DNA from: Corallococcus macrosporus
GTDB lineage: Bacteria; Myxococcota; Myxococcia; Myxococcales; Myxococcaceae
Direction of reading: 5' to 3'
Length of the DNA: 64,000 bases
Assembly: GCF_017302985.1 (NCBI RefSeq)
Contig: NZ_JAFIMU010000004.1
Span: 186,001 to 250,000, forward strand
The stretch's first letter is position 1. Every line of letters begins with the position of its first letter. This document shows, in pieces, positions 16,853 through 32,017 of this stretch. Under the pieces are notes generated by a model that was given only the letters and a program-made list of their open reading frames with translations, was not told where the DNA came from and ran no database searches. A program made the position numbers and the translations under genes.

Positions 16853-18049
16853 CTACCGCGCGGACAGGGGCGGGCGGGGGCCGCTGGAGAAGCCCAGGCG
16901 GCGCAGCATCACCTGCCGGATGGATGGGATGCGGAAGCGGAAGATGAAGGCGTCCGCGAAGTAGTGCGCGAGCACGCACGCGAAGCTCAGGCAGGTCAGC
17001 GCACGGAGCAGGGGATGCGCCTGCGCGCCACCGCCGATGCCCAGTGAGCCGCGCATGGGCCCCTCCAGCAGGAAGCCATGCACCACGCCCAACGCGAACA
17101 GCGGGAGCATGGAGGCAATCATCGCGGGCCAGATGAGCTTCTGGCTGAGGCGGGGAGCGTCGCCTTCGCGCGGCTCCAGCATGCGGGCGCTGAGCACGTA
17201 GTACTCCAGGCCGTGCATGCCCGGGAGCATCACGTAGCCCCAGGACGGGGCCACGAGCGCCAGGCCCGTCGCCGTGGCCATGCCCAGGAGGTAGAGCACC
17301 TTGGGGCCGCTGGCGGTGCCGGAGCGGAGCACGCTCCGGAAGAGCAGCAGGAAGTAGCCCAGCCAGACGGCGATGAGCAGGGGTAGCGTCTGCCACGGCA
17401 GCACCGCGCCCTGACCCACGTCGAGGTACGCGGGGGCTCCGGGGGCGGCGGACTCGGCGACGAAGAAGATGCGGACGAGGAGGACGGAGAGCAGCAGCGG
17501 GACGTAGAGCTGCTGGAGCTTGCGCTCGAGCGGGGAGGGTGAGGCCAGGCCCTCCTGTCCGCCGCGCAGGCCGTGCAGGGACCACAGGCCCCGGTGTTGC
17601 GACAGGGTGTGGTGCATGCCGAAGACGTTGAAGATGACGGCCACGGCGAAGGTGTGGATGGAGCGGTCGGCGTAGAAGGTGAAGAACAGCGCGGTTCCCA
17701 CTCCGAGCATGGCCAGCGCACCGGCCAGGATGGTGCGCGGCTGCTTGGGGGCGGCGGTCAGCACGTCACGGTGCACGCCGAAGAGCAGGAACGTCAGGAT
17801 GACGTGCGTGGCGTTGCCCAGGAGGTTCTGGGCCGTCCACCCCAGCAGCCGGTGGGCGTTGTCCTCGGCGTCCGGGGCGAGGAACGTGCTGGCGACAGCG
17901 GCCACCAGCGTCAGCGCCAGGGGGATGCCCAGGATGGCGAGGTCGGCCCGGGGGGAGAACAGCCACAGGCGGCGAAAGCGCAGGGTGCCGGGGGCGGCCG
18001 GCGTGTCCTGCTCCGTGGCGGTGGCGACTCCGGGGCTCAGCGGTGTCAT
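16853..18049 (-). CDS. Histidine-rich polytopic membrane protein of unknown function
   Basis: 398 residues from the ATG at 18049, with about ten hydrophobic spans. Conserved-looking His clusters lie at the membrane edges: MHHTLSQHRG, MHGLEYY and AHYFADAFIFRF. Such spacing can bind metal or haem, and HYF-type motifs occur in several membrane protein families of unknown function. I cannot name the family. The next gene, GT-C-like, begins 17 bp downstream, so the two may work together in the envelope. Confidence 0.65.
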   Translation of the reverse strand: MTPLSPGVATATEQDTPAAPGTLRFRRLWLFSPRADLAILGIPLALTLVAAVASTFLAPDAEDNAHRLLGWTAQNLLGNATHVILTFLLFGVHRDVLTAAPKQPRTILAGALAMLGVGTALFFTFYADRSIHTFAVAVIFNVFGMHHTLSQHRGLWSLHGLRGGQEGLASPSPLERKLQQLYVPLLLSVLLVRIFFVAESAAPGAPAYLDVGQGAVLPWQTLPLLIAVWLGYFLLLFRSVLRSGTASGPKVLYLLGMATATGLALVAPSWGYVMLPGMHGLEYYVLSARMLEPREGDAPRLSQKLIWPAMIASMLPLFALGVVHGFLLEGPMRGSLGIGGGAQAHPLLRALTCLSFACVLAHYFADAFIFRFRIPSIRQVMLRRLGFSSGPRPPLSAR

Positions 18050-18198
18050 GGGATTGGGAGTATACCGGGTCCCCAGGGGCCCAGGACCCGCGCTGCCCTG
18101 CCTGCCGGGCGGGGAGGAGGGGACGGGCCGCAGGAGGTGCGACAGATGCTGGGGGGAAGACCGATCGCCACGGGGCACCCGCGTCCTACGGGGAGTGG

Positions 18199-18501
18199 AT
18201 GCGTCTGGCGGTGTTCGGGCTTTTGTTTGTCGGCCTCGTGGCTTGTATGGCCTGGGAGTGCCCGCTGCTGGGCGGACCCCTGTTCTGGATCCTCTGGGCA
18301 GCGTGGTTGGCCGGCTCGGTGTTCTTTCTCGGGCGGCGTGCCTGGTTGATCCATGTCTCACGGTCTTCGACCTATGACGCCATCGATGAGCGGATGAGGC
18401 GCAATGGGAGGTGGCGGGTCGAATTGCTCGACCCGGCGTCGTCGCAGGAGACATGCGACCCTGGAGCCTGCATGGATTTGCCGCTCGGGGACTCTGTGTA
18501 G
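18199..18501 (+). CDS. Small membrane protein of unknown function
   Basis: 100 residues from the ATG at 18199, preceded by a purine-rich GGGGAG. Two hydrophobic spans occupy residues about 1-50, followed by a polar C-terminal tail with three Cys. It lies on its own between a divergent membrane-protein gene and the amidohydrolase gene. Codon use is less GC-biased than that of its neighbours. No family is recognised. Confidence 0.5.
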   Translation: MRLAVFGLLFVGLVACMAWECPLLGGPLFWILWAAWLAGSVFFLGRRAWLIHVSRSSTYDAIDERMRRNGRWRVELLDPASSQETCDPGACMDLPLGDSV

Positions 18502-18543
18502 GGGACGGGGTTCATCCGCCACCCACCCCGTGCTAAAACGGGG

Positions 18544-19878
18544 ATGTCCATGGAAGGCCGACTGCTTCTGAAGAACTGCGCCGTGTTCCGTGCGGACGGT
18601 CGCGTCCGCCACGGCATGGCCGTCGTGGTCGAAGAGGGCATCATCCGCCGCGTCGCTCCGGACGCCGAGGTGCCCGTGCTCCCCGGTGACTGGGAAGTGG
18701 CGTGTCGCGGCCGGCTCGTCGCCCCCGGCCTCGTGGACTGTCACTCGCACATGGTCAACGGGCAGCTCCTGCCCCCCAATGGCGACTTCCTCCTGCGTCA
18801 GCCCCGCTCGCGCCTGGAGCGCATGCGCGGCGTGGCCAACCTCCTCACCGCCGAGGACGTGGAGATCCTCACCCGCTTCGCCGCCGCTCGCGCGCTGCTG
18901 GATGGCGTCTCCCTCGTCGTCGACCACCTGTCCTGCCCCAGCGACGTCGCTGGCGCCCTGGAGGCCCAGGCCCGCGCCGCGAACTCGCTGGGCATCCGCC
19001 TGGTCACGTCCCACTCCACGCACAGCCTGGATGGCGCCGCCGTGGCCGACTCCCAGGCCGATGCCAACGCCGAATTCGTCCGCCGCTACCGGGAACACCC
19101 TCGCGTCCGGGGCGCCCTGGGCTTCCATGCGTCCTACACCTGCGAGGACGCCCTCCTGTCCCGCATCGCGGGGCACCGCCAGGAGCTGAACGCGTCCGTC
19201 GTCTTCCACCTCGCGGAGAACGAGGACGACCTCTCCACGACCTACTCCACGCACGGCCGCCGCGTCGTGCCGCGCCTGGATGCGCTGGGCCTGCTGGGGC
19301 CTCACGCCATCGCCGGCTACCCTCGCGCCGTGGAGCGCTCCGAGGCGGAACGGCTGGCCGCCTCCGGCACGTTCATCGCCCTCACTCCCCGCGCCACGCG
19401 CTCCATGGACCGCGCGGCCGAATCCGCTGACGGCGCGCTGTCCAGCCTCCACCTCGTGGGTCTGGGCACTGGCGGCCATGGCACCCTCCAGGAGGAACTC
19501 GCCGGGGCGCTCGTCAGCATGCTGTCCCTGGCGCGCTCCGGGCGCATGCCGGACCTGGATGATTCGCTGGCGCACCTGTTCGTCAGCGGCCCCGCGGAGC
19601 TCTGCACCCGCCTGTATGGCAAGCCTTCGGGCGGCGTGGACGAGGGCAGCATCGCGGACCTCGTCGTCTACGACGCCATCCCCGCCGCCGACCCGGAGAC
19701 GGGCTACTCGCCGTTCCTCCTGGGCCAGCTCGTCGCCGCCCGCGTGGCGTGGACCATCGTCGATGGCCGCGTCTGCGTCCGCGAAGGGCAGCTGCTGGGC
19801 AATGACTACGTGGAGCTGGCCCGCGACGCCGCCGCCGCGCTCGCTCGCGTCTGGTCCCGCGCACGGCTGGGTTCGTAG
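18544..19878 (+). CDS. SsnA-like amidohydrolase homologue lacking two metal ligands
   Basis: 444 residues, with overall similarity to the SsnA/chlorohydrolase branch of amidohydrolases. The first metal motif HSH (about residues 67-69) and a later His in VVFHLAENEDD remain. The third His expected in AHCxxL is replaced (AIAGYPRA), and the Asp of the usual GTDG is replaced (GLGTGGHGT). Without these ligands ordinary hydrolysis is unlikely. The frame is intact and codon use is normal, so this is not decay. The methyltransferase gene follows after 14 bp, suggesting one transcript. Confidence 0.75.
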   Translation: MSMEGRLLLKNCAVFRADGRVRHGMAVVVEEGIIRRVAPDAEVPVLPGDWEVACRGRLVAPGLVDCHSHMVNGQLLPPNGDFLLRQPRSRLERMRGVANLLTAEDVEILTRFAAARALLDGVSLVVDHLSCPSDVAGALEAQARAANSLGIRLVTSHSTHSLDGAAVADSQADANAEFVRRYREHPRVRGALGFHASYTCEDALLSRIAGHRQELNASVVFHLAENEDDLSTTYSTHGRRVVPRLDALGLLGPHAIAGYPRAVERSEAERLAASGTFIALTPRATRSMDRAAESADGALSSLHLVGLGTGGHGTLQEELAGALVSMLSLARSGRMPDLDDSLAHLFVSGPAELCTRLYGKPSGGVDEGSIADLVVYDAIPAADPETGYSPFLLGQLVAARVAWTIVDGRVCVREGQLLGNDYVELARDAAAALARVWSRARLGS

Positions 19879-23654: not shown

Positions 23655-24725
23655 CTACGGGTAGCAGGCCGCCTGGCGCAGGCCGGTGTCCTCGGGGTAG
23701 CCAAGGGCCACGTTGAAGTTCTGCACGGCCTGTCCGGCCATGCCCTTCACCAGGTTGTCCAGCGCCGCCATCACCGCCACGGAGCGGCCCTTCGTCGCCA
23801 CGGAGATGTCGCAGAAGTTGCTGCCCGCGACGGCCGCCACGCGCGGCGTGCCCTCCACGATGCGCACGAACTTCGAGCCCTCGTAGTAGCGGCGGTACTT
23901 CTCCGTCAGCGACTGCGTCACCACCGCGCCGCCGTGCTCCGGCCACTCGAACTGCACGGTGGCGAAGATGCCGCGCACCATGGGCGCCGAGTGCGGCACG
24001 AAGGCCAGCCGGTGCCGCTGGGCACCATGGGCCACCAGCATCACCTCCACCTCCGCCTCGTGCTGGTGCTCCAGCGGCTTGTACGCGCGGAAGTCGTGCG
24101 CGCGCGTCGGGTGGTGCGTGCCCTCGCCCGGCAGCGAGCCGGAACCCGACGAGCCCGTGACGCCCGACACCGCCAAAAGCCCCAGCCCCGGCGTGGCCGC
24201 GATGGGCAACAGCGCCAGTTGCACCGCCGTCGCGAAGCAGCCCGGGTTGGCGATGCGCTTCGCCGTCTTCACCTGCTCACGCTTCCACTCCGTGAGGCCG
24301 TAGGTGAACGTGCCCAGCAGGTCCGGGGACGGGTGCGGCCGGCCGTAGGCGCCCGCGTACCGGCCCGGGTGGTCCAGGCGGAAGTCGGACGACAGGTCCA
24401 CCAGCAGCATCCGGTCCGTGAGCCCCGCGTCCGCCCACTGCTTCTCCAGCCCGGCGAACTGCGTCGCCAGGTCGCCGTGGCCCAGCGCGCTGAACACCAC
24501 CGGGCGCTGCGAGTCCGCGAGCCAGCGCCAGTCCGGCTCCGCCTCGAAGCGGCCGTCCACCAGCCCGCGCAGGTGCGGGTGCACCTTGTGGATGGGCGAG
24601 CCCGCGTGGTGCCGGGACACCACGCGGATGCCGGCGTTGCCAGGGTGGCCCGCGAGCAGCCGCAGCAGCTCGCCTCCGCCGAAACCGGAGGCCCCCAGGA
24701 TGTAGATGTGCGCAGGCGACGTCAT
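23655..24725 (-). CDS. argC: N-acyl-gamma-glutamyl-phosphate reductase
   Basis: 356 residues. NADPH-dependent reduction of N-acylglutamyl phosphate to the semialdehyde, third step of arginine synthesis. The N-terminus has YILGASGFGGGELLRLL for the dinucleotide, and the catalytic Cys is in NPGCFATAVQLAL. Substrate-binding GEGTHHPTRAHDF and FVPHSAPMVRGI are present. The ATG overlaps the stop of the preceding P-loop gene by 4 bp (ATGA), implying coupled translation. It is the last gene of the arg operon. If the carbamoyltransferase uses succinyl-ornithine, this enzyme must accept the succinyl form. Confidence 0.93.
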   Translation of the reverse strand: MTSPAHIYILGASGFGGGELLRLLAGHPGNAGIRVVSRHHAGSPIHKVHPHLRGLVDGRFEAEPDWRWLADSQRPVVFSALGHGDLATQFAGLEKQWADAGLTDRMLLVDLSSDFRLDHPGRYAGAYGRPHPSPDLLGTFTYGLTEWKREQVKTAKRIANPGCFATAVQLALLPIAATPGLGLLAVSGVTGSSGSGSLPGEGTHHPTRAHDFRAYKPLEHQHEAEVEVMLVAHGAQRHRLAFVPHSAPMVRGIFATVQFEWPEHGGAVVTQSLTEKYRRYYEGSKFVRIVEGTPRVAAVAGSNFCDISVATKGRSVAVMAALDNLVKGMAGQAVQNFNVALGYPEDTGLRQAACYP

Positions 24726-25783
24726 GACTTCCTCCCCGCACCGAGCTTCGGCGCGAGCTTCTCCACGATGAGATTCCCCAGGGCGTTGGGATCCGCGCGC
24801 GCGTTGCGAGCGGGCAGCCCCACCACCTGCTCCACGAAGCGCACGCCCACCGCGTTGTCCGTGGCGGGCCCGGCCACCATGTCCATCTCGATGCCGTACA
24901 CCTCGCGCAGGTGCCGCACGCCGCCGGCCGCGCCCACCGGGTCGTTCGCGCACAGGATGTACGCGCCGCCCAGCGCCTTGAGCTCCGGGTCCGCCAGGAT
25001 GGCCTGCACGCCGTACTCGCCCATGATGCCGTCGCCCGTCTCCGCGACGATGACGTCCACCTCCTGGGCCGCCATCTCCGAGAAGACGATGCGCGCCACC
25101 TTGGACGCCGTGCGCGCGCCGGTGCACACGACGCCCGCGTCGGTGAAGTCCATCACCACGTCCGCGCCGCTGTCCTGCATGGACAGCGTGTCGCGCATCA
25201 GCGACACGCCCGTGAGCTTCGCGCCGCCCACGCGGTAGCCCGCCTGGGAGAGCTTGCGCACCACGACGCTGGCCGCGTACGTCTTGCCCGCGTTCATGCA
25301 GGTGCCCACCACGTACACCACGGGGCACGTCACCGCCCGCGACGTGCCCTTGAGCGCGCCGGTGGAGATGTGCGCGTGCTGGCCCGCGCGCGACTGGAAC
25401 TCCGGGAAGGTGAGGACCTGGCCCAGCACCTCCGCCTCGAACGGCGGCCCCACGCCCGGGTTGTGCGAGGTGCACTTCCCGATGACGCCGCCCATGTTGA
25501 GGATGTTGAGCTTGTCGCCCACCGTGACGGACGCGGGCACGACGCCCTCGTAGCCGTGCAGGGCGTTGCGGTGGCCCAGCGCGCCCACGACGATGTCGCC
25601 CGCGTGGAGCGTGACGAGCCGGCCGTTCACGTCCTCCAGCTGGTTGTAGACGCTCTTCTCCCCGTGGATGCGCACCGCGATGACGGCGCCCTCTTCGCAC
25701 TTCACCTCGTCCGTGAGGTGCACGGTGCGCCCCACCTGGAGGTTGCGGGTGACACTTCCGACCTTGTCGACGTGGATCTTCAT
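24722..25783 (-). CDS. Unknown P-loop protein within the arginine operon (DUF1611-like)
   Basis: 353 residues. The N-terminal half has conserved-looking Gly-rich turns (GDIVVGALGHRNALHGYEG, NMGGVIGKC). The C-terminal half starts with a P-loop, VVGTCMNAGKTYAAS, then KLTGVSLMRDT, and VIVAETGDGIMGEYG. This P-loop region recalls DUF1611/DgcN-type ATPases, some of which act on N-acylated amino acids; I am not certain of the family. It lies 4 bp after argG and overlaps argC by 4 bp, so it is made together with arginine enzymes. A function in that pathway is likely, but which one is open. Confidence 0.75.
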   Translation of the reverse strand: MKIHVDKVGSVTRNLQVGRTVHLTDEVKCEEGAVIAVRIHGEKSVYNQLEDVNGRLVTLHAGDIVVGALGHRNALHGYEGVVPASVTVGDKLNILNMGGVIGKCTSHNPGVGPPFEAEVLGQVLTFPEFQSRAGQHAHISTGALKGTSRAVTCPVVYVVGTCMNAGKTYAASVVVRKLSQAGYRVGGAKLTGVSLMRDTLSMQDSGADVVMDFTDAGVVCTGARTASKVARIVFSEMAAQEVDVIVAETGDGIMGEYGVQAILADPELKALGGAYILCANDPVGAAGGVRHLREVYGIEMDMVAGPATDNAVGVRFVEQVVGLPARNARADPNALGNLIVEKLAPKLGAGRKS

Positions 25784-25787
25784 GTCG

Positions 25788-26975
25788 TCACTTCGCTTTC
25801 TGCGAGAGCATCTGCGCGACGCCGTAGAGCTTGGCGAACCCCGCCGCCTCCGTCCCCGTCCACAACACGTTGGCCTCTCCGTACGTCGCCACCTTCGCGT
25901 CCATCAGCGAGTGCGGCGAACGCACGCCTTCCACGACGTGGGCGCGCGGGGTGAGCACCAGCTTCACCTCGCCCGTCACGCGGTCCTGCGAGGAGGCGAG
26001 GAACGCCTCCAGGTCCTTCACCAGCGGGTCGAAGAAGTGCCCCTCGTGCAGCAGCGACCCGTACAGGTTGCCCACCGTCTCCTTCCAGAAGAGCTGCTTG
26101 CCCGACAGCACCAGCTTCTCCAGCTCGCGGTGCGACGCGATGAGCAGGTGCGCCGCGGGCGCCTCGAAGCCCACGCGGCCCTTGATGCCCAGGATGGTGT
26201 CGCCCAGGTGCACGCCCCGGCCAATGCCGTACGGCCTGCCCAGCGCGTTGAGCTTCTCCACCACGTCCACCGCCGACAGCGCCTTGCCGTCGAGCGCCAC
26301 CGGCACGCCCTTGTCGAAGGAGATGATCAGCGGCAGCGGCTTCAGGTCGGTGGGAATCTCCCCACCGGGGAAGGCCGCTTCCGGCAGGGTGCTCCACGAG
26401 TCCAGCGTCTCGCGGCCGCCCACGGACGTGCCCCACATGCCCTCGTTGACGGAGTACGTGCCCGTCTTCGCCGGCAGGTGGAAGCCGCGCTCCGCGAGGA
26501 AGGAAATCTCCTGCTGGCGGGAGAGCGCCAGGTCGCGGATGGGCGTGATGAGCTGGAGCTGCGGCGCGAGCGTGCGGAAGGCCACGTCGAAGCGGACCTG
26601 ATCATTCCCCGCGCCGGTGCTGCCGTGGGCCACGGCCTGCACGCCCAGCTTCTCCGCCATGCGCACGGCCTCCACGGCCTGGCACGCGCGCTCCGCGGAG
26701 ACGCTCAGCGGGTAGAGCTGGCCGCGCAGCACGTTGCCGGCGATGAGGAAGCGCAGGTAGCCCTGGAACAGGGTGTCGCGCGCGTCCACCGTGTGGTGCG
26801 CCACCGCGCCCAGCTTCTGGGACAGGGCCTGGATGCGCTGCAGCTGCTCGGGCGGGAAGCCGCCCGTGTCCACGGTGACGGTGGTGACGTCCCAGCCCTG
26901 CTCACGCAGGTACACCGTGCAGAAGGCGGTATCGAGGCCACCGGAGAACGCCAGCACCACGGACTTCTTGCTCAT
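25788..26975 (-). CDS. argG: Argininosuccinate synthase
   Basis: 395 residues from the ATG at 26975. ATP-dependent joining of citrulline and aspartate. The PP-loop reads VLAFSGGLDTAFC, followed by a VDTGGF segment, and HGSTGAGNDQVRFD and EGMWGTSVGGRE mark the active site. The loop and overall sequence look closer, from memory, to the Bacteroidetes-type enzyme than to E. coli ArgG. The gene starts 40 bp after argH and is followed after 4 bp by the P-loop gene. Confidence 0.93.
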   Translation of the reverse strand: MSKKSVVLAFSGGLDTAFCTVYLREQGWDVTTVTVDTGGFPPEQLQRIQALSQKLGAVAHHTVDARDTLFQGYLRFLIAGNVLRGQLYPLSVSAERACQAVEAVRMAEKLGVQAVAHGSTGAGNDQVRFDVAFRTLAPQLQLITPIRDLALSRQQEISFLAERGFHLPAKTGTYSVNEGMWGTSVGGRETLDSWSTLPEAAFPGGEIPTDLKPLPLIISFDKGVPVALDGKALSAVDVVEKLNALGRPYGIGRGVHLGDTILGIKGRVGFEAPAAHLLIASHRELEKLVLSGKQLFWKETVGNLYGSLLHEGHFFDPLVKDLEAFLASSQDRVTGEVKLVLTPRAHVVEGVRSPHSLMDAKVATYGEANVLWTGTEAAGFAKLYGVAQMLSQKAK

Positions 26976-27015: not shown

Positions 27016-28365
27016 TCAGGGGGCCCAGACGCGTGAAGCGGCCTCGGCCTGCTGGGCATGGGTGCGCGTGAGCCAGTCGCGCGCGTCCGCCAGTTCCTCG
27101 CGCGCGGTGGCGAGGCCCAGGTTGCCGGCGCCACCCAGGTGGGTGGCCGTCAGCGCGCCACGGTCCGGCTGGAAGGTGCCTTCGTTGAGCTGACGGCCCA
27201 CCTCGCGGTACGCGTCGCGGAAGGGCTGGCCCTTCGCCACGAGCGCGTAGGCGTGGTGCGCGGCGTAGAGCGTGTCGTCGCACGCCGCGCGCGCCTTCTC
27301 CGCGTTCACCTTCAGCGCGGGCACCAGCCGCGCCAGGACCTCCAGAAGCGCCTTCGCGCTGGTGAGGGCCTGGAGGGTGGGGCGCTTCAGCAACTGGAAG
27401 TCACGGTGGTAGCTGGAGGGAAGCCCGCCGGCCACCGCCTCCACCTGGTGCGCAAGGCCGCGCAGCTCGCGGCAGCGGCCCCGGGCCAGCTCCACCACGT
27501 CCGGGTTCTTCTTCTGCGGCATGATGGACGAGCCGGTCGTGAAGGCATCCGGCAGGGCCAGGAAGCCGAACTCGTCCATGCTGTAGAGCTGCACGTCCCA
27601 AAGCCACTTCTCCAGAGTGCCCGCCACCGAGCACGCCCAGGTGAGCAGCGCTGCTTCATGCCGCCCCCGACTGTCCTGCGCGTCGATGGGGCTGCGTTGA
27701 ACTCGACTAAAACCGAGCAACCGCGCGACATATTCACGGTCGATGGGCAGCGGCACGCCGAAGCCCGCGGCGGCGCCCAGCGGGCAGCGGTCGAGCCGCC
27801 CCCACACGCCCTTCAGCGCCTCCAGCTCCTCCAGCAGCCCTTCGGCGAACGCCATGCCCCACAGGCCGAAGGTGGACGGCATCGCGCGGCGCAGGTGCGT
27901 GTAGCCGGGCAGGGGCAGGTCCGCATGCGCCTGCGCGAAGTCGAGGAACGTGCCGGCCAGCTCCGCCGTGCGCGCACCCAGCGCGAGCAGTTCCTCGCGC
28001 ATGAAGAGGCGCAGGGCGAGCAGCACCTGGTCGTTGCGCGAGCGCGCCAGGTGGATGCGCTTGCCCGCCTCGCCGGTGCGCTCCACGAGCGCGGCCTCCA
28101 GCGCGGTGTGGCCGTCCTCCTGCTCCGGGCGGATGGTGAAGCGGCCCGCTCGGGCCTCGTCGTGCAGCGCGTGCAGGGCGCTCACGAGCGACGCGGCGGC
28201 GTCAGGCGCGAGCAGCCCCACGTGCGCGAGCATGCGGGCGTGCGCGGCGCTGCCCAGCGCGTCGTGCGGGACGAGCGACAGGTCCACCACCGGGTCATCG
28301 CCCACGGTGAAGGCGTGGATGGCCGCGTCCAGCGGCTGGCCCTTGCCCCACAATGTCTCAGCCAC
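27016..28365 (-). CDS. argH: Argininosuccinate lyase
   Basis: 449 residues from a GTG at 28365. The strong GGGGAGG six bases upstream favours this start over an ATG at 28383, which would lie in front of the ribosome site. The enzyme releases arginine and fumarate from argininosuccinate. Key motifs are HLARSRNDQV and the family signature GSSIMPQKKNPD, with its catalytic Ser. The start overlaps the end of argE by 8 bp, indicating coupled translation. Confidence 0.92.
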   Translation of the reverse strand: MAETLWGKGQPLDAAIHAFTVGDDPVVDLSLVPHDALGSAAHARMLAHVGLLAPDAAASLVSALHALHDEARAGRFTIRPEQEDGHTALEAALVERTGEAGKRIHLARSRNDQVLLALRLFMREELLALGARTAELAGTFLDFAQAHADLPLPGYTHLRRAMPSTFGLWGMAFAEGLLEELEALKGVWGRLDRCPLGAAAGFGVPLPIDREYVARLLGFSRVQRSPIDAQDSRGRHEAALLTWACSVAGTLEKWLWDVQLYSMDEFGFLALPDAFTTGSSIMPQKKNPDVVELARGRCRELRGLAHQVEAVAGGLPSSYHRDFQLLKRPTLQALTSAKALLEVLARLVPALKVNAEKARAACDDTLYAAHHAYALVAKGQPFRDAYREVGRQLNEGTFQPDRGALTATHLGGAGNLGLATAREELADARDWLTRTHAQQAEAASRVWAP

Positions 28366-29428
28366 GCGACACCTCCCCGGCATAGCCGTGCAGCAGTCGT
28401 CGATAGAACGCGAGCCCCGCCTCCAGCTCCGCGCGCGTGAGGTACTCGTTCGCCTGGTGGCTCCGGAGCGTGTCGCCCGGACCCACCTTCACCGCGGGCA
28501 GGTCGCCCAGGAACGCCCAGTCGGACGTGGTGCTGGAGCCCACGGTCGCCTGTCCCGACGCCGCCACCGCCGCGCGCACCAGCGGGTGCGACGCGTCCGT
28601 GCCCTTGGGCAGGTAGCGCGCGGAGTGCACCACCACCTCGCTCTCCAGCGCACGGCCCACGTCCTCCGCCACCTTCGCGTGGTCCATGCCCGGCGTGGTG
28701 CGCAGGTCCACGAAGAACTCGCACCGGTCCGGCACCTGGTTGCGCGCGAGGCCCCCGGACACCTGCGTCACCTGCGCTCGCGCCTCACCCAACAGCGGGT
28801 GCGCGGGGAAGCGCAACGCGGACACGGCCTGGATGTCCCGGGCCGCCTTGAGGATGGCGTTGGATTCCGAGCCCAGGCCACCCGTGTGCGCGTGCGCGAC
28901 GTGGCCGCTCTTGCCGTGCGCCACGCAGCGCAGGAGCAGCATGCCCCGCTGCGCCGTGCAGGGCTTGAGCGACGTGGGCTCTCCCACGATGGCGGCGTCC
29001 AGCGGCCCCAGCGCGGGCAACAGTGGCCCCAGCCCCTTGCCGCCCGTCTCCTCCTCGGCGGTGAGCGCGAAGACGCACTCCACACCGGAAGGCGCGCCTT
29101 CTTCGAGGAGCGCCTTCGCGGTGAGGAGCATGGCGGTGACGCAGCCCTTGGCGTCGTTGGCGCCCAGGCCGTAGAGCGTGTCGTCCTTCCACACGGCCTC
29201 GTGCGGCTCGGTGTTCCACCCGGCGCACGGCTTCACCGTGTCCAGGTGCGAGTTGACGAGCAGGCGCTTCGGCCCGCTGCCCACGCTGAACCACACGTTG
29301 TGGCCCTGGCGGTGCACGCGGGCACCCCAGGACTCCGCATGGCCCGCGACGAGGTCCGCGATGCGGGCCTCGTCGCCGGAGACGCTGGGCGTGGCGACCA
29401 GCGCGGTGAGCAGCTCGGCGGGGTTCAA
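28358..29428 (-). CDS. argE: M20-family deacylase of arginine synthesis (ArgE-like)
   Basis: 356 residues. Zinc-dependent removal of the N-acyl group. Metal ligands are visible in NSHLDTV, GANDAKG, AEEETGGKG, VGEPT and the last LRSHQANEYL. Because the neighbour is an acyl-ornithine carbamoyltransferase, the natural substrate should be acyl-citrulline (acetyl or succinyl), as for the Xanthomonas and Bacteroides counterparts, rather than acetylornithine. The sequence also resembles DapE/LysK. It overlaps argB by 4 bp and argH by 8 bp. Confidence 0.88.
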   Translation of the reverse strand: MNPAELLTALVATPSVSGDEARIADLVAGHAESWGARVHRQGHNVWFSVGSGPKRLLVNSHLDTVKPCAGWNTEPHEAVWKDDTLYGLGANDAKGCVTAMLLTAKALLEEGAPSGVECVFALTAEEETGGKGLGPLLPALGPLDAAIVGEPTSLKPCTAQRGMLLLRCVAHGKSGHVAHAHTGGLGSESNAILKAARDIQAVSALRFPAHPLLGEARAQVTQVSGGLARNQVPDRCEFFVDLRTTPGMDHAKVAEDVGRALESEVVVHSARYLPKGTDASHPLVRAAVAASGQATVGSSTTSDWAFLGDLPAVKVGPGDTLRSHQANEYLTRAELEAGLAFYRRLLHGYAGEVSRG

Positions 29429-30372
29429 CCCTTGGCCTCGCCGTGCTTCACCGGGTGCTCGCGCACGACCATGGTGCCGCTGCCCTCGTTGGTGAAGACC
29501 TCCTCCAACAGGGCGTCGGACTGCTTGCCGCTCACCAGGTGCACGCTGCCCACGCCGCCCACGAGCGCGTGGCGCATGGCGTGCGCCTTCGGACGCATGC
29601 CGCCCGTGAGCCGCCCTTCCGCCTCCAGGGACGCCAGGTCCGACAGCGTGGCCAGCGAGATGAGCGACGACGGGTCGGAGACGTCCTTGAGGAGCCCCGG
29701 CACCTCCACCATGAAGAACAGCTTTTCGGCATGCAGCGCCGCCGCCAGGGCCGCCGCCACCGTGTCCGCGTTGGTGTTGTACACGGCGCCGTCCTGGCCA
29801 CCCGACAGCGGGGCGATGACGGGCACGTAGTCCGCGCTGCGCAGATGCTCCACGACGCGCGTGTCCACGGACTCGATGTCGCCCACGAGGCCGTAGTCCA
29901 CCATGCGGCCCTGGGTTTCACCGGGCTCCGTCACCAGCACGGGCGGGCGCTTGCGCGCCTTGATGAGGCCCGCGTCCACGCCGGACAGGCCCACCGCGGG
30001 CACGCCCGCGGCCTGGAGGTCCGCTAGCAGGTCCGTGTGCAGCTTGCCCGCGAGCACCATCTTCGCCGCGTCCAGCACGGGCGCGGAGGTGATGCGGCGG
30101 CCCGCCACCTTCTCGATGGGCAGGTGCAGGGCGTCACAGAGCGAGTCCAGCTCCGGACCGCCGCCGTGCACCACGACGGGGCGGATGGAGAAGGCCCACA
30201 GCAGGGCGATCTGCTCGCACGCCGTCTTGCGCGTGCGCGGATCCGTCAGCACGGCGCCGCCCAGCTTCACCACGAAGGTCTTGCTGCGGAACTGCTTCAC
30301 GTACTTCGCCGCGTTGCGGAGTGCGGCGTACGGGTCGGGAGACAAAGGCACGGTGGACCTCTGGAAATTCAA
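29425..30372 (-). CDS. argB: N-acylglutamate kinase
   Basis: 315 residues, somewhat longer than E. coli ArgB (258). It phosphorylates the gamma carboxyl of N-acylglutamate. Markers are VVKLGGAVLTD, VVHGGGPELDSL, and YNTNADTVAAALA, with a late GGMRPKAHAMRHAL. The N-terminal extension of about 25 residues resembles the form found in arginine-inhibited kinases. It lies 39 bp after argF' and overlaps argE by 4 bp. Acetyl or succinyl specificity cannot be read directly. Confidence 0.92.
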   Translation of the reverse strand: MNFQRSTVPLSPDPYAALRNAAKYVKQFRSKTFVVKLGGAVLTDPRTRKTACEQIALLWAFSIRPVVVHGGGPELDSLCDALHLPIEKVAGRRITSAPVLDAAKMVLAGKLHTDLLADLQAAGVPAVGLSGVDAGLIKARKRPPVLVTEPGETQGRMVDYGLVGDIESVDTRVVEHLRSADYVPVIAPLSGGQDGAVYNTNADTVAAALAAALHAEKLFFMVEVPGLLKDVSDPSSLISLATLSDLASLEAEGRLTGGMRPKAHAMRHALVGGVGSVHLVSGKQSDALLEEVFTNEGSGTMVVREHPVKHGEAKG

Positions 30373-30411: not shown

Positions 30412-31416
30412 TCAGCCGCCGCGCATCCAGGCCAGGAGGGCGCGCTGCACGTGGTAGCGGTTGCCCGCCTCGTCCACGACGCGGCTGCTCGCGTGGTCCA
30501 GCACCTCGTCGGCGACCTCCACGTTGCGGCGCACGGGCAGGCAGTGCAGGAACGCCGCGTCCTTCGCGGCCTTCGCCATGTGCCGGCGCGTGGGCATCCA
30601 GCCCGAGTACGACGCGAGCAGCGCCGCCACGTCCGTGGGCGTGCTGGCCGTCTGAGCCGTGGGGCCCCAGGACTTGGCGTACACGGCGCGGCTGCCCACC
30701 AGCGCCTCGTCCTGGTCGTGCGTGTACGTGATGCTGCCGCCGGTGGCCTTGGCGTACGCCTCGGCTTCCGCGCGCACGGCCGGGTGCAGGTCGAAGCCCG
30801 GCGGATGCGCCACGCGCACCTCGCAGCCCGCGGCTGCCGCGGACAAGAGGAACGAGTTGGGAACGGCCTTGGGCAGCGGCTTGATGTGCGGCGCCCAGGT
30901 GAGCGTCACCGGCAGCTTCTTCGTGGTGCCGAACGTCTCGCGCAGCGTGAGCGCGTCCGCCAGGCCCTGGCAGGGGTGCTCGCGCGCGGACTCCATGCTC
31001 ACCACCGGCACGGTGGCCCACTTGCGGAAGGCGTTGATGACGGGGTCGGCCTCGTCCTCCTCGTCACCGCCGCCCTGGGAGAAGGTGCGGATGCCGAGCA
31101 TGTCCACGAAGCGCGACAGGACGGGCGACGCCTCCTTGATGTGCTCCGCGCGGTCCGCGTTCATCACCGCGCCGGGACGGTCCTCCAGCTTCCACACGCC
31201 AGAGCCCACGTCGAGCACGATGGCGTGCCCGCCCGCGCGCAGCATCACCGCCTCGAAGGAGGTGCGCGTGCGCAGCGACGGATTGAAGAACACCATGCCC
31301 AGGATCTTCCCGGGGAACAGCGCCCCAGGGTCCTTCTGCTTCCACGCGGCCGCCTGCGAGAGGACCGCCTCGACGCCTTCCGGGCCCAGGTCCTGGATGC
31401 GGGTGACATGCTTCAT
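30412..31416 (-). CDS. argF': N-acylornithine carbamoyltransferase (acetyl/succinyl type, ArgF')
   Basis: 334 residues from the ATG at 31416. It transfers carbamoyl from carbamoyl phosphate to an acylated ornithine. The carbamoyl-phosphate loop is FFNPSLRTRTSFE. EHPCQGLADALT, LTWAPHIKPLPKAVPNSF, VYAKSWG and HCLPVRRNVEV are shared with the Xanthomonas acetylornithine and Bacteroides succinylornithine enzymes, and differ clearly from ordinary ornithine carbamoyltransferase. The residue that distinguishes the two (Glu92 in Xanthomonas, Pro90 in Bacteroides) is Ala90 here, in NADRAEHIKE. Published changes of Glu92 to Ala gave succinyl preference. It is the first gene of the operon, facing argR. 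Confidence 0.93.
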   Translation of the reverse strand: MKHVTRIQDLGPEGVEAVLSQAAAWKQKDPGALFPGKILGMVFFNPSLRTRTSFEAVMLRAGGHAIVLDVGSGVWKLEDRPGAVMNADRAEHIKEASPVLSRFVDMLGIRTFSQGGGDEEDEADPVINAFRKWATVPVVSMESAREHPCQGLADALTLRETFGTTKKLPVTLTWAPHIKPLPKAVPNSFLLSAAAAGCEVRVAHPPGFDLHPAVRAEAEAYAKATGGSITYTHDQDEALVGSRAVYAKSWGPTAQTASTPTDVAALLASYSGWMPTRRHMAKAAKDAAFLHCLPVRRNVEVADEVLDHASSRVVDEAGNRYHVQRALLAWMRGG

Positions 31417-31461
31417 GGGCTTCGTGCTCCCCCGGCCGCGCCGGATGGATGGGGTACTGCT

Positions 31462-31490
31462 GAATATGCACTCGAATTCATGCATATTCG
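31462..31490. promoter_or_regulatory. Arginine-control region with ARG-box-like repeats
   Basis: Between divergent argF' and argR. GAATATGC (31462-31469) and GCATATTC (31482-31489) form a perfect inverted repeat with a 12-bp spacer, and a nested CGAAT...ATTCG lies at 31473-31490. Additional TGCAT/ATTCA-like pieces lie at 31541-31600. The stretch is strikingly AT-rich for this genome. ArgR boxes are built from TGAAT/ATTCA-like arms, so ArgR is the natural candidate regulator. Confidence 0.55.
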
Positions 31491-31597
31491 CTGAGGAGGC
31501 GCGGATATTATGCAGAACGGCGCAGCGCGCAAGAACATTCACTGGGATTTTTCATCCGCCTTGCGTGCGTATTCAGCCGCATGCATGGTGAACGTGA

Positions 31598-32017
31598 ATG
31601 AACCTGGACGACGCCATCCTTCAGCTCATCTCCCGGCAGGACGTTCCGGATCAGGCGGTGCTCCAGGAGCTGCTGGAGCAGGCGGGGCACGCGCCCAGCC
31701 AGTCCACGCTGTCGCGGCGGCTGAAGAAGCTGCACGTGCAGAAGGTGAACGGGCGCTACCAGCGCACGGAGCCGCCGGTGGCGCCGGTGCCGCTCGCGCC
31801 GAGCGTCACCATCATCGAGGCGCCACCCAACATGCTGGTGCTGAAGACGGCGCCCGGCTACGCGCAGATCTTCGGGCTGGCGCTGGACCGCGAGGAGGTG
31901 GAGGGCCTGGCGGGCACGGTGGCGGGCGACGACACCATCTTCATCGCGGTGAGGGATCCGTCGCTGTTGCAGGACGTGCGCGAAGCGGTGGAGCAGCTCA
32001 TCCAGCGCGGCCCGTGA
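31598..32017 (+). CDS. argR: Arginine repressor
   Basis: 139 residues. The N-terminal winged helix includes PSQSTLSRRLKKL, equivalent to the TQATVSRDL recognition helix of ArgR. The C-terminal arginine-sensing and hexamer-forming domain has GYAQIFGLALD and TVAGDDTIFIAV, close to the GTIAGDDTIF hallmark. It diverges from the arginine operon, and AT-rich inverted repeats between them are likely targets. Its stop overlaps the end of the convergent 2H phosphoesterase gene by 20 bp. Confidence 0.92.
   Translation: MNLDDAILQLISRQDVPDQAVLQELLEQAGHAPSQSTLSRRLKKLHVQKVNGRYQRTEPPVAPVPLAPSVTIIEAPPNMLVLKTAPGYAQIFGLALDREEVEGLAGTVAGDDTIFIAVRDPSLLQDVREAVEQLIQRGP

Follow-up and report, generated by a model that had tools for sequence, protein, structure and literature searches.

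A myxobacterial arginine operon with a succinyl-type carbamoyltransferase and a DUF1611-like candidate for the first step

The window, a 64,000-nucleotide stretch of DNA whose nearest relatives are Corallococcus, contains an operon that, judging from its genes, probably makes arginine via N-acylated, most likely N-succinylated, intermediates, with a DUF1611-like protein acting first. A preliminary description had read the locus as an arg operon with a succinyl-type switch in its carbamoyltransferase (CT), which holds, but it overlooked the DUF1611-like gene. It had also proposed an N-succinyl route to arginine, to which argB, argC and argE might be adapted. We still infer this route rather than observe it; enzyme class, switch residues and gene context nonetheless make it the best reading, because it agrees with two further diagnostic positions of the CT, with the subfamily of the M20 enzyme, with a genome in which neither ArgJ nor OTC was found and with a wide co-occurrence of the genes.

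On balance, we lean towards a broader view as well, in which DUF1611-like proteins form a separate class of N-acyl-L-glutamate synthase, neither GNAT nor ArgJ, that succinylates its substrate, and in which the pathway is widespread outside Bacteroidetes and has been mis-annotated as an acetylcitrulline route. Its range would then take in Myxococcaceae, Holophagaceae and members of Planctomycetota, Elusimicrobiota, Armatimonadota and Gemmatimonadota, among others.

Organization of the operon and its upstream region

The genes for CT, ArgB, the M20 deacylase, ArgH, ArgG, the DUF1611-like protein and ArgC follow one another on the minus strand with tight spacing (Table 1). The DUF1611-like gene sits between argG and argC, and its stop overlaps the start of argC by 4 bases. 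We set the argG start at MSKKSVVLAF, the open reading frame extending further upstream. ArgB consists of PF00696 only, with no acetyltransferase domain or GNAT tail. Two CTs, those of C. carmarthensis (L148) and C. exercitus (L152), are identical to that of the window in our tree.

Table 1. Features of the arginine operon and its upstream region in the window
Feature	Coordinates	Strand	Basis
Acyl-ornithine carbamoyltransferase (CT), Ala90/Pro/Glu	30412..31416	-	NF003384 446.6 bits; SxRT, HPxQ, HxLP
ArgB-type N-acylglutamate kinase	29425..30351	-	TIGR00761 203 bits (cut-off 151.3)
M20 deacylase, candidate N-succinylcitrulline desuccinylase	28358..29428	-	Best PDB match 3ct9, E 1.9e-58
argH, argininosuccinate lyase	27016..28383	-	TIGR00838 301.5 bits (cut-off 279.5)
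argG, argininosuccinate synthase	25788..26975	-	TIGR00032 305.6 bits (cut-off 268.2)
DUF1611/DgcN-like P-loop protein, candidate N-acyl(succinyl)-L-glutamate synthase	24722..25783	-	arg neighbours, confident model
argC, N-acyl-gamma-glutamyl-phosphate reductase	23655..24725	-	TIGR01850 326.1 bits (cut-off 233.6)
argR-type arginine repressor	31598..32017	+	PF02863 and PF01316 above cut-off; divergent from operon
Inverted repeat GAATATGCA/TGCATATTC	31462..31489	.	Read directly; upstream of operon

The argR-type protein scores 86.2 bits with TIGR01529, under the cut-off of 130.45. The inverted repeat upstream of the operon is a possible ArgR operator; similar elements, not always exact, are found in the 13 relatives listed. 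A search with the ArgR operator pattern TGAATNNNNATTCA, one mismatch allowed, gave no match. The interval between CT and argR (31417-31597) also contains a promoter-like core, TTGCGC...TAnTAT, and GCATATNCA-like elements, and both recur, again not always exactly, in the 13 relatives listed.

Switch residues of the carbamoyltransferase

The CT reading frame encodes 334 residues. The three motifs quoted for it in the preliminary description are present (from residues 43, 172 and 245 onwards). Residue 90, within NADRAEHIKEA, is indeed an alanine. Its proposed equivalence to Glu92 of the Xanthomonas AOTC was borne out: the switch region aligns without gaps by HMMER (3kzc has Glu), and alignment with the AOTC chains of the PDB places Ala90, and no other residue, at the switch. 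Assignment to the acyl-ornithine class rather than ArgF is likewise sound. The NF003384 score lies far above the cut-off of 288, and we rejected an ArgF identity since TIGR00658 gives 168.7 bits, well under its cut-off of 280.85. The transcarbamylase motifs take the form SLRT, HPCQ and HCLP, and the proline-rich loop of the knotted class is present in the alignment (TWAPHIKPLPKAVPN versus TWTYHPKPLNTAVAN in Xanthomonas). Scored over its whole length, the window CT is closer to the AOTC of Xanthomonas than to SOTC, the Bacteroides SOTC chains matching it at E 1.6e-57. The best-scoring PDB chain is 3l02, which has Ala at the switch by HMMER.

A 2007 study reportedly converted the Xanthomonas enzyme to a succinylornithine enzyme by replacing Glu92. 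This conversion of the acetylornithine enzyme is restated in the accessible text of PMC7311316. As described in the available part of PMC4581275, acetyl enzymes are marked by Glu92, Asn185 and Lys302, and succinyl enzymes by A/S/P/V/Q at 92, P at 185 and V/I/E at 302. In a MAFFT alignment anchored on Xanthomonas (Xc) numbering, the window CT has Ala, Pro and Glu at these positions; all three thus agree with the published succinyl type and none with Glu92/Asn185/Lys302. The same portion of PMC4581275 gives H176, R178 and R278 (B. fragilis numbering) as the residues that anchor the succinyl group. The window CT has His, Lys and Arg at Xc positions 180, 182 and 298, which probably correspond to them. 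The Lys at the R178 equivalent, a deviation at one of the three anchoring residues, counts against the succinyl reading.

That the enzyme has broad or other substrates, such as ornithine, so that Ala90 says nothing about the acyl group, strikes us as scarcely credible: position 92 does vary in the family (A, V, P, S, T, Q), but the TIGR00658 score falls far short of its cut-off, the CT has the proline-rich loop that marks knotted acyl-ornithine enzymes and the neighbouring genes are of acyl type. A somewhat unlikely but weightier alternative is an operon running on N-acetyl intermediates, in which the Ala90 CT would, in the context of its own sequence, use N-acetylornithine, the DUF1611-like protein would be an N-acetylglutamate synthase, and ArgE and/or the M20 enzyme would deacetylate. 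The NCBIfam name that the NF003384 match confers, N-acetylornithine carbamoyltransferase, speaks for this alternative, and the succinyl-type state of all three published discriminating residues speaks against it.

We read the switch residues in 32 of the 67 Myxococcota genomes with a CT above the NF003384 cut-off, namely the window, 17 loci of its family, L049-L052, six loci with Glu92 and four of family f11. Position 92 is Ala in all 17 window-family loci, Thr in L049 and Val in L050-L052. The CTs of L050-L052 keep the acetyl-type Lys302, and two of them have Ala at 185, which speaks against the succinyl reading.

Candidates for the first enzyme in the genome

Only two OTCace_N proteins were found in the window's own genome, the window CT and a second protein recognizable as an ATCase by its HPSQ and RLQTERM motifs. 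Neither OTC nor ArgJ was found in this genome, and hence carbamoylation must take place on an ornithine that is already acylated. The best match to the ArgA model TIGR01890 reaches 123.2 of 202.85 bits and is the kinase part of ArgB; across nine genomes with the DUF1611-like gene that were tested, none has an ArgA above the TIGR01890 cut-off. With no ArgJ, no ArgA above cut-off and no NAGS among the GNATs scanned, the acylation of glutamate would have to fall either to the DUF1611-like protein or to a GNAT that escaped recognition.

This second option would combine a succinyl-type CT with an unlinked short GNAT, similar to BT3761/ArgA2, that acylates glutamate, the DUF1611-like protein serving in feedback control or channelling. 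We consider it quite improbable. It has precedent in the succinyl pathways of Bacteroidetes, which use a GNAT according to the accessible parts of PMC7311316 and PMC9026213, and the window's genome has 37 PF00583 (GNAT) matches, two of them weakly similar to the GNAT part of ArgA. However, none of the 28 GNATs scanned (all of the 37 except L217, L218 and seven others) passes a NAGS cut-off. For the eight of these 28 that match no family at E 1e-5 the test is a weak one, and the frame of L200 is possibly wrong. Two further points, both described below, weigh against the GNAT option: at the loci examined, argC has the DUF1611-like gene as a constant neighbour, and in the two phyla sampled this gene does not co-occur with ArgJ.

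Linkage and distribution of the DUF1611-like gene

A scan of an 84,980-species collection yielded 304 relatives of the DUF1611-like protein, and the best 80 were kept. An arg gene adjoins the DUF1611-like gene at every one of these 80 loci. Its neighbours there are argG (76), argC (75), argB (68), argH (66), CT (61), M20 (59) and argR (58), with many of the absences falling at contig ends. The bacterial phyla represented among the best 80 of 304 are Elusimicrobiota, Planctomycetota, Gemmatimonadota, Acidobacteriota, Armatimonadota, Eiseniibacteriota, Bdellovibrionota, Pseudomonadota and Myxococcota, alongside one Woesearchaeota bin. A gene-sized gap between argC and CT is seen in 23 of the best 80, and an argD-like gene was found in both of the two scanned (L123, L171). 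All steps from N-acylglutamate to arginine are assigned in the fuller operons, which leaves the DUF1611-like gene for the first step. Three loci with the gene (L144, L161 and L184) show no CT match within the stretch examined; in L144 and L161, argB directly precedes it.

A strong copy of the DUF1611-like gene (>400 bits) occurs in 59 of 195 Myxococcota genomes, and a weak match (97 bits or less) in six more. A CT above the NF003384 cut-off accompanies 57 of the 59 strong copies, comprising 53 genomes of the window's GTDB family plus G188, G189, G192 and G193; of the remaining two, G187 has its copy at the end of a contig, and G194 carries an ordinary OTC. One contig is represented twice among the loci read, as L109/G195 and as L104/G194. 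ArgJ was found in none of the 59 genomes with a strong copy, compared to 90 of the other 136 (90/195 overall), and it is present in all six with a weak match. Similarly, in 199 genomes of Acidobacteriota, the phylum of Geothrix, ArgJ was found in 0/49 with a copy of at least 247 bits versus 70/150 of the others, these 49 copies being counted by score and not by arg-operon context. Nine Acidobacteriota have a weaker best copy (124-165 bits) and three of these overlap with ArgJ; the weaker copies may be other DUF1611 proteins. Fisher tests, which ignore phylogeny, gave P values of 5.4e-21 and 1.2e-11.

One archaeal locus departs from this pattern and speaks against our reading. In L171 (Woesearchaeota), argJ (17832-18971) directly follows argH, in addition to the DUF1611-like gene and a CT of the Ala92 type; its ArgJ is the only one among the 43 genomes with the DUF1611-like gene in the search that revealed it. 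G194 pairs a DUF-argC-argB cluster with an ordinary OTC (397.7 bits). The DUF1611-like gene thus does not require an acyl-citrulline route, an observation that counts against our reading and favours the N-acetyl alternative.

Co-variation with carbamoyltransferase type

We tabulated the switch positions of the 61 CTs linked to the DUF1611-like gene in the best 80 of 304 loci. Position 92 is Ala in 47, Val and Pro in five each, Ser in two, and Thr and Gln in one each; Glu92 occurs in none of the 61. Pro185 is present in 60; the acetyl-type Lys302 is kept in two, a point against the succinyl reading. This consistent avoidance of Glu92 argues against N-acetyl intermediates.

Xanthomonas AOTC and its operon share with the window operon their motifs, their family and a carbamoylation that precedes deacylation. 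Operons of the Xanthomonas type differ in having Glu92/Asn185/Lys302, a NAGS-kinase fusion and a 2f7v-type deacetylase, and such operons occur in other Myxococcota (L033-L037 and L071; fusion checked in three, M20 in one). The six Myxococcota CTs with Glu92, Asn185 and Lys302 form one clade with Xanthomonas (100/100), and the DUF1611-like gene is absent from all six genomes. In the three complete Glu92 operons checked (L034, L036 and L037), ArgB carries the NAT domain of NAGS (PF04768) as a fusion, and the best PDB match of the M20 protein in the one operon checked for it (L037) is 2f7v (E 1.6e-64). First enzyme, CT and deacylase thus appear, from sequence, to change together in the operons checked, and the different synthase and M20 types of the Glu92 operons again disfavour the N-acetyl alternative. 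One caveat is that the Glu92 enzymes are a single clade, and hence the co-variation may reflect few events rather than many independent ones. For the window we rejected a plain Xanthomonas-type AOTC, since the three switch positions and the subfamily of the M20 enzyme differ and the operon contains no NAGS-kinase.

Family and fold of the DUF1611-like protein

The DUF1611 model, PF07755, scores 23.3 bits on the window protein, under the gathering score of 25, and matches 32 of 42 family members at E values up to 0.1. No DUF1611 entry was found among PDB sequences by phmmer or profile search (queries P0007, A1 and A5). An AlphaFold model based on 42 sequences has a pLDDT of 95.1 and a pTM of 0.92; the lysine of the P-loop is K167. 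VIA-align of this model gave Z scores of 16.8 for 2g0t, 15.4 for 2obn and 14.8 for DgcN (7xrj), and among the 50 matches listed, only these three have ranges that reach back to residues 54-55. CTP and dethiobiotin synthetases, with the common P-loop domain, tie with the three on Z, and P-loop GTPases and dethiobiotin synthetases are among the first matches of Foldseek. The equal scores of P-loop enzymes with other functions, and the PF07755 score under the threshold, count against the proposed role.

We take DgcN (7xrj) to be a D-glutamate N-acetyltransferase of the DUF1611 family, and we know of no activity for any member of the DUF1611-like family. Given the similarity of the model to DgcN, a role as acyl-CoA:glutamate N-acyltransferase is chemically plausible. 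The D-glutamate N-acetyltransferase class is mentioned in the available text of PMC11747546. The N-acetyl alternative draws some support here, one structural relative (DgcN) being titled an N-acetyltransferase. Judging from the model, the window protein may share the fold of DUF1611/DgcN proteins (2g0t, 2obn, 7xrj), in line with its weak Pfam match; it differs from them in its linkage to arginine synthesis. No description of the DUF1611-like family in arginine synthesis was found among the open-access literature matches listed.

Deacylases inside and outside the operon

The window M20 protein matches 3ct9 far better (Table 1) than the acetylcitrulline deacetylase 2f7v (E 1.2e-18), and 3ct9 is also the best match of the M20 protein in the archaeal operon of L171 (E 1.2e-41). 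We presume that 3ct9 is B. thetaiotaomicron BT3549. The latter is a desuccinylase candidate, as described in the accessible portion of PMC7311316.

A true ArgE is encoded outside the operon in all six window-family genomes tested and in three of three further ones (TIGR01892, 494-555 bits). The simple pathway leaves this separate enzyme unexplained, and its retention in 9/9 genomes of the family favours N-acetyl intermediates. Outside the window's family, however, ArgE exceeds the cut-off in only three of 46 genomes tested (G204, G227 and G208), which is hard to reconcile with that alternative. The operons of G204 (L122) and G227 (L161) show no M20 protein and that of G208 (L126) has one, a pattern which suggests that ArgE and the operon M20 can replace each other.

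In an alignment with E. coli ArgE, the separate enzyme has Tyr and Phe at ArgE-specific positions, within the stretches NKGYC and SFGTE; the operon M20 protein has Met and Thr at the two positions. M. xanthus ArgE likewise has Tyr and Phe, according to the available part of PMC11270798. In the part of PMC5801462 that is accessible, an insertion in MXAN_1012 (argE) of M. xanthus is an arginine auxotroph. This ArgE is thus reported as necessary for arginine synthesis, and it belongs to the M20 family, as does the operon enzyme. Residues and map position lead us to infer that MXAN_1012 is the counterpart of the family's true ArgE. Its likely orthologue in the window genome, outside the operon, is 33% identical to the operon M20 protein over 299 residues. 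Given the auxotrophy, the operon M20 enzyme may not be the sole or real deacylase in M. xanthus; deacylation there may be performed by ArgE, or both enzymes may be needed. Two ArgE proteins of the Tyr/Phe kind (L250:9774-10916 and L249:9261-10403) lie in regions without recognised arg genes nearby, the one in L249 near a putative HutF-like amidohydrolase.

Proposed pathway and relation to known systems

In the N-succinyl route that we favour, the DUF1611-like protein would transfer succinyl from succinyl-CoA to L-glutamate. ArgB would then phosphorylate and ArgC reduce the N-succinyl compound, and ArgD, presumably encoded elsewhere in the genome, would transaminate the product to N-succinylornithine. 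The Ala90 CT would yield N-succinylcitrulline, the M20 enzyme would strip off the succinyl group to give citrulline, and ArgG and ArgH would produce arginine, with ArgR presumably acting as repressor. What the sequence itself shows is which genes are present, the switch residues, the conserved linkage and the lack of ArgJ and OTC in this genome; from these we deduce which acyl group is used, what each enzyme acts on and that the DUF1611-like protein is an acyltransferase.

The likeness to the Bacteroidetes pathway, with its B. fragilis SOTC (1js1, 2fg6), lies in the succinyl-type residues and the M20 protein of the 3ct9 subfamily. As in the window genome, no ArgJ or OTC is reported for B. thetaiotaomicron in the accessible text of PMC7311316. 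The first step differs: in Bacteroidetes it is catalysed by the GNAT BT3761/ArgA2 (PMC7311316 and PMC9026213, as far as available), whereas for the window operon we propose a DUF1611-like P-loop protein. In the open-access collection searched, 'succinylglutamate synthase' was found only in these two papers, both of which, in their accessible portions, concern Bacteroidetes. No description of a myxobacterial succinyl route was found in an open-access search, which covered neither the 2007 switch paper nor the 1998 paper on M. xanthus argE.

The first arginine step is a known gap in annotated genomes, as noted in the available portions of PMC7311316 and PMC9026213, and a conserved candidate gene makes this gap directly testable with one protein and two acyl-CoAs. 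If our reading is correct, the succinyl pathway described for Bacteroidetes would extend to some ten phyla, and the name that these enzymes receive automatically, 'N-acetylornithine carbamoyltransferase', would have to be corrected.

Unusual carbamoyltransferases of family f11

Loci L053-L058 of the Myxococcota family f11 (e.g. L055:9625-10668) encode a CT near AOTC (298 bits). Its switch residue is Thr, its proline-rich loop reads SPS where HPK is expected, and Asp takes the place of Arg298; no other protein of the window operon was matched within the stretches examined. A second odd CT is found at L059-L065, also of f11 (e.g. L062:9190-10203). It carries the motifs SVRT and HPMP and a loop reading VWGHGxLARSW, its 80's loop is short, and in L062 its scores with the models for AOTC, OTC and YgeW all stay below cut-off.
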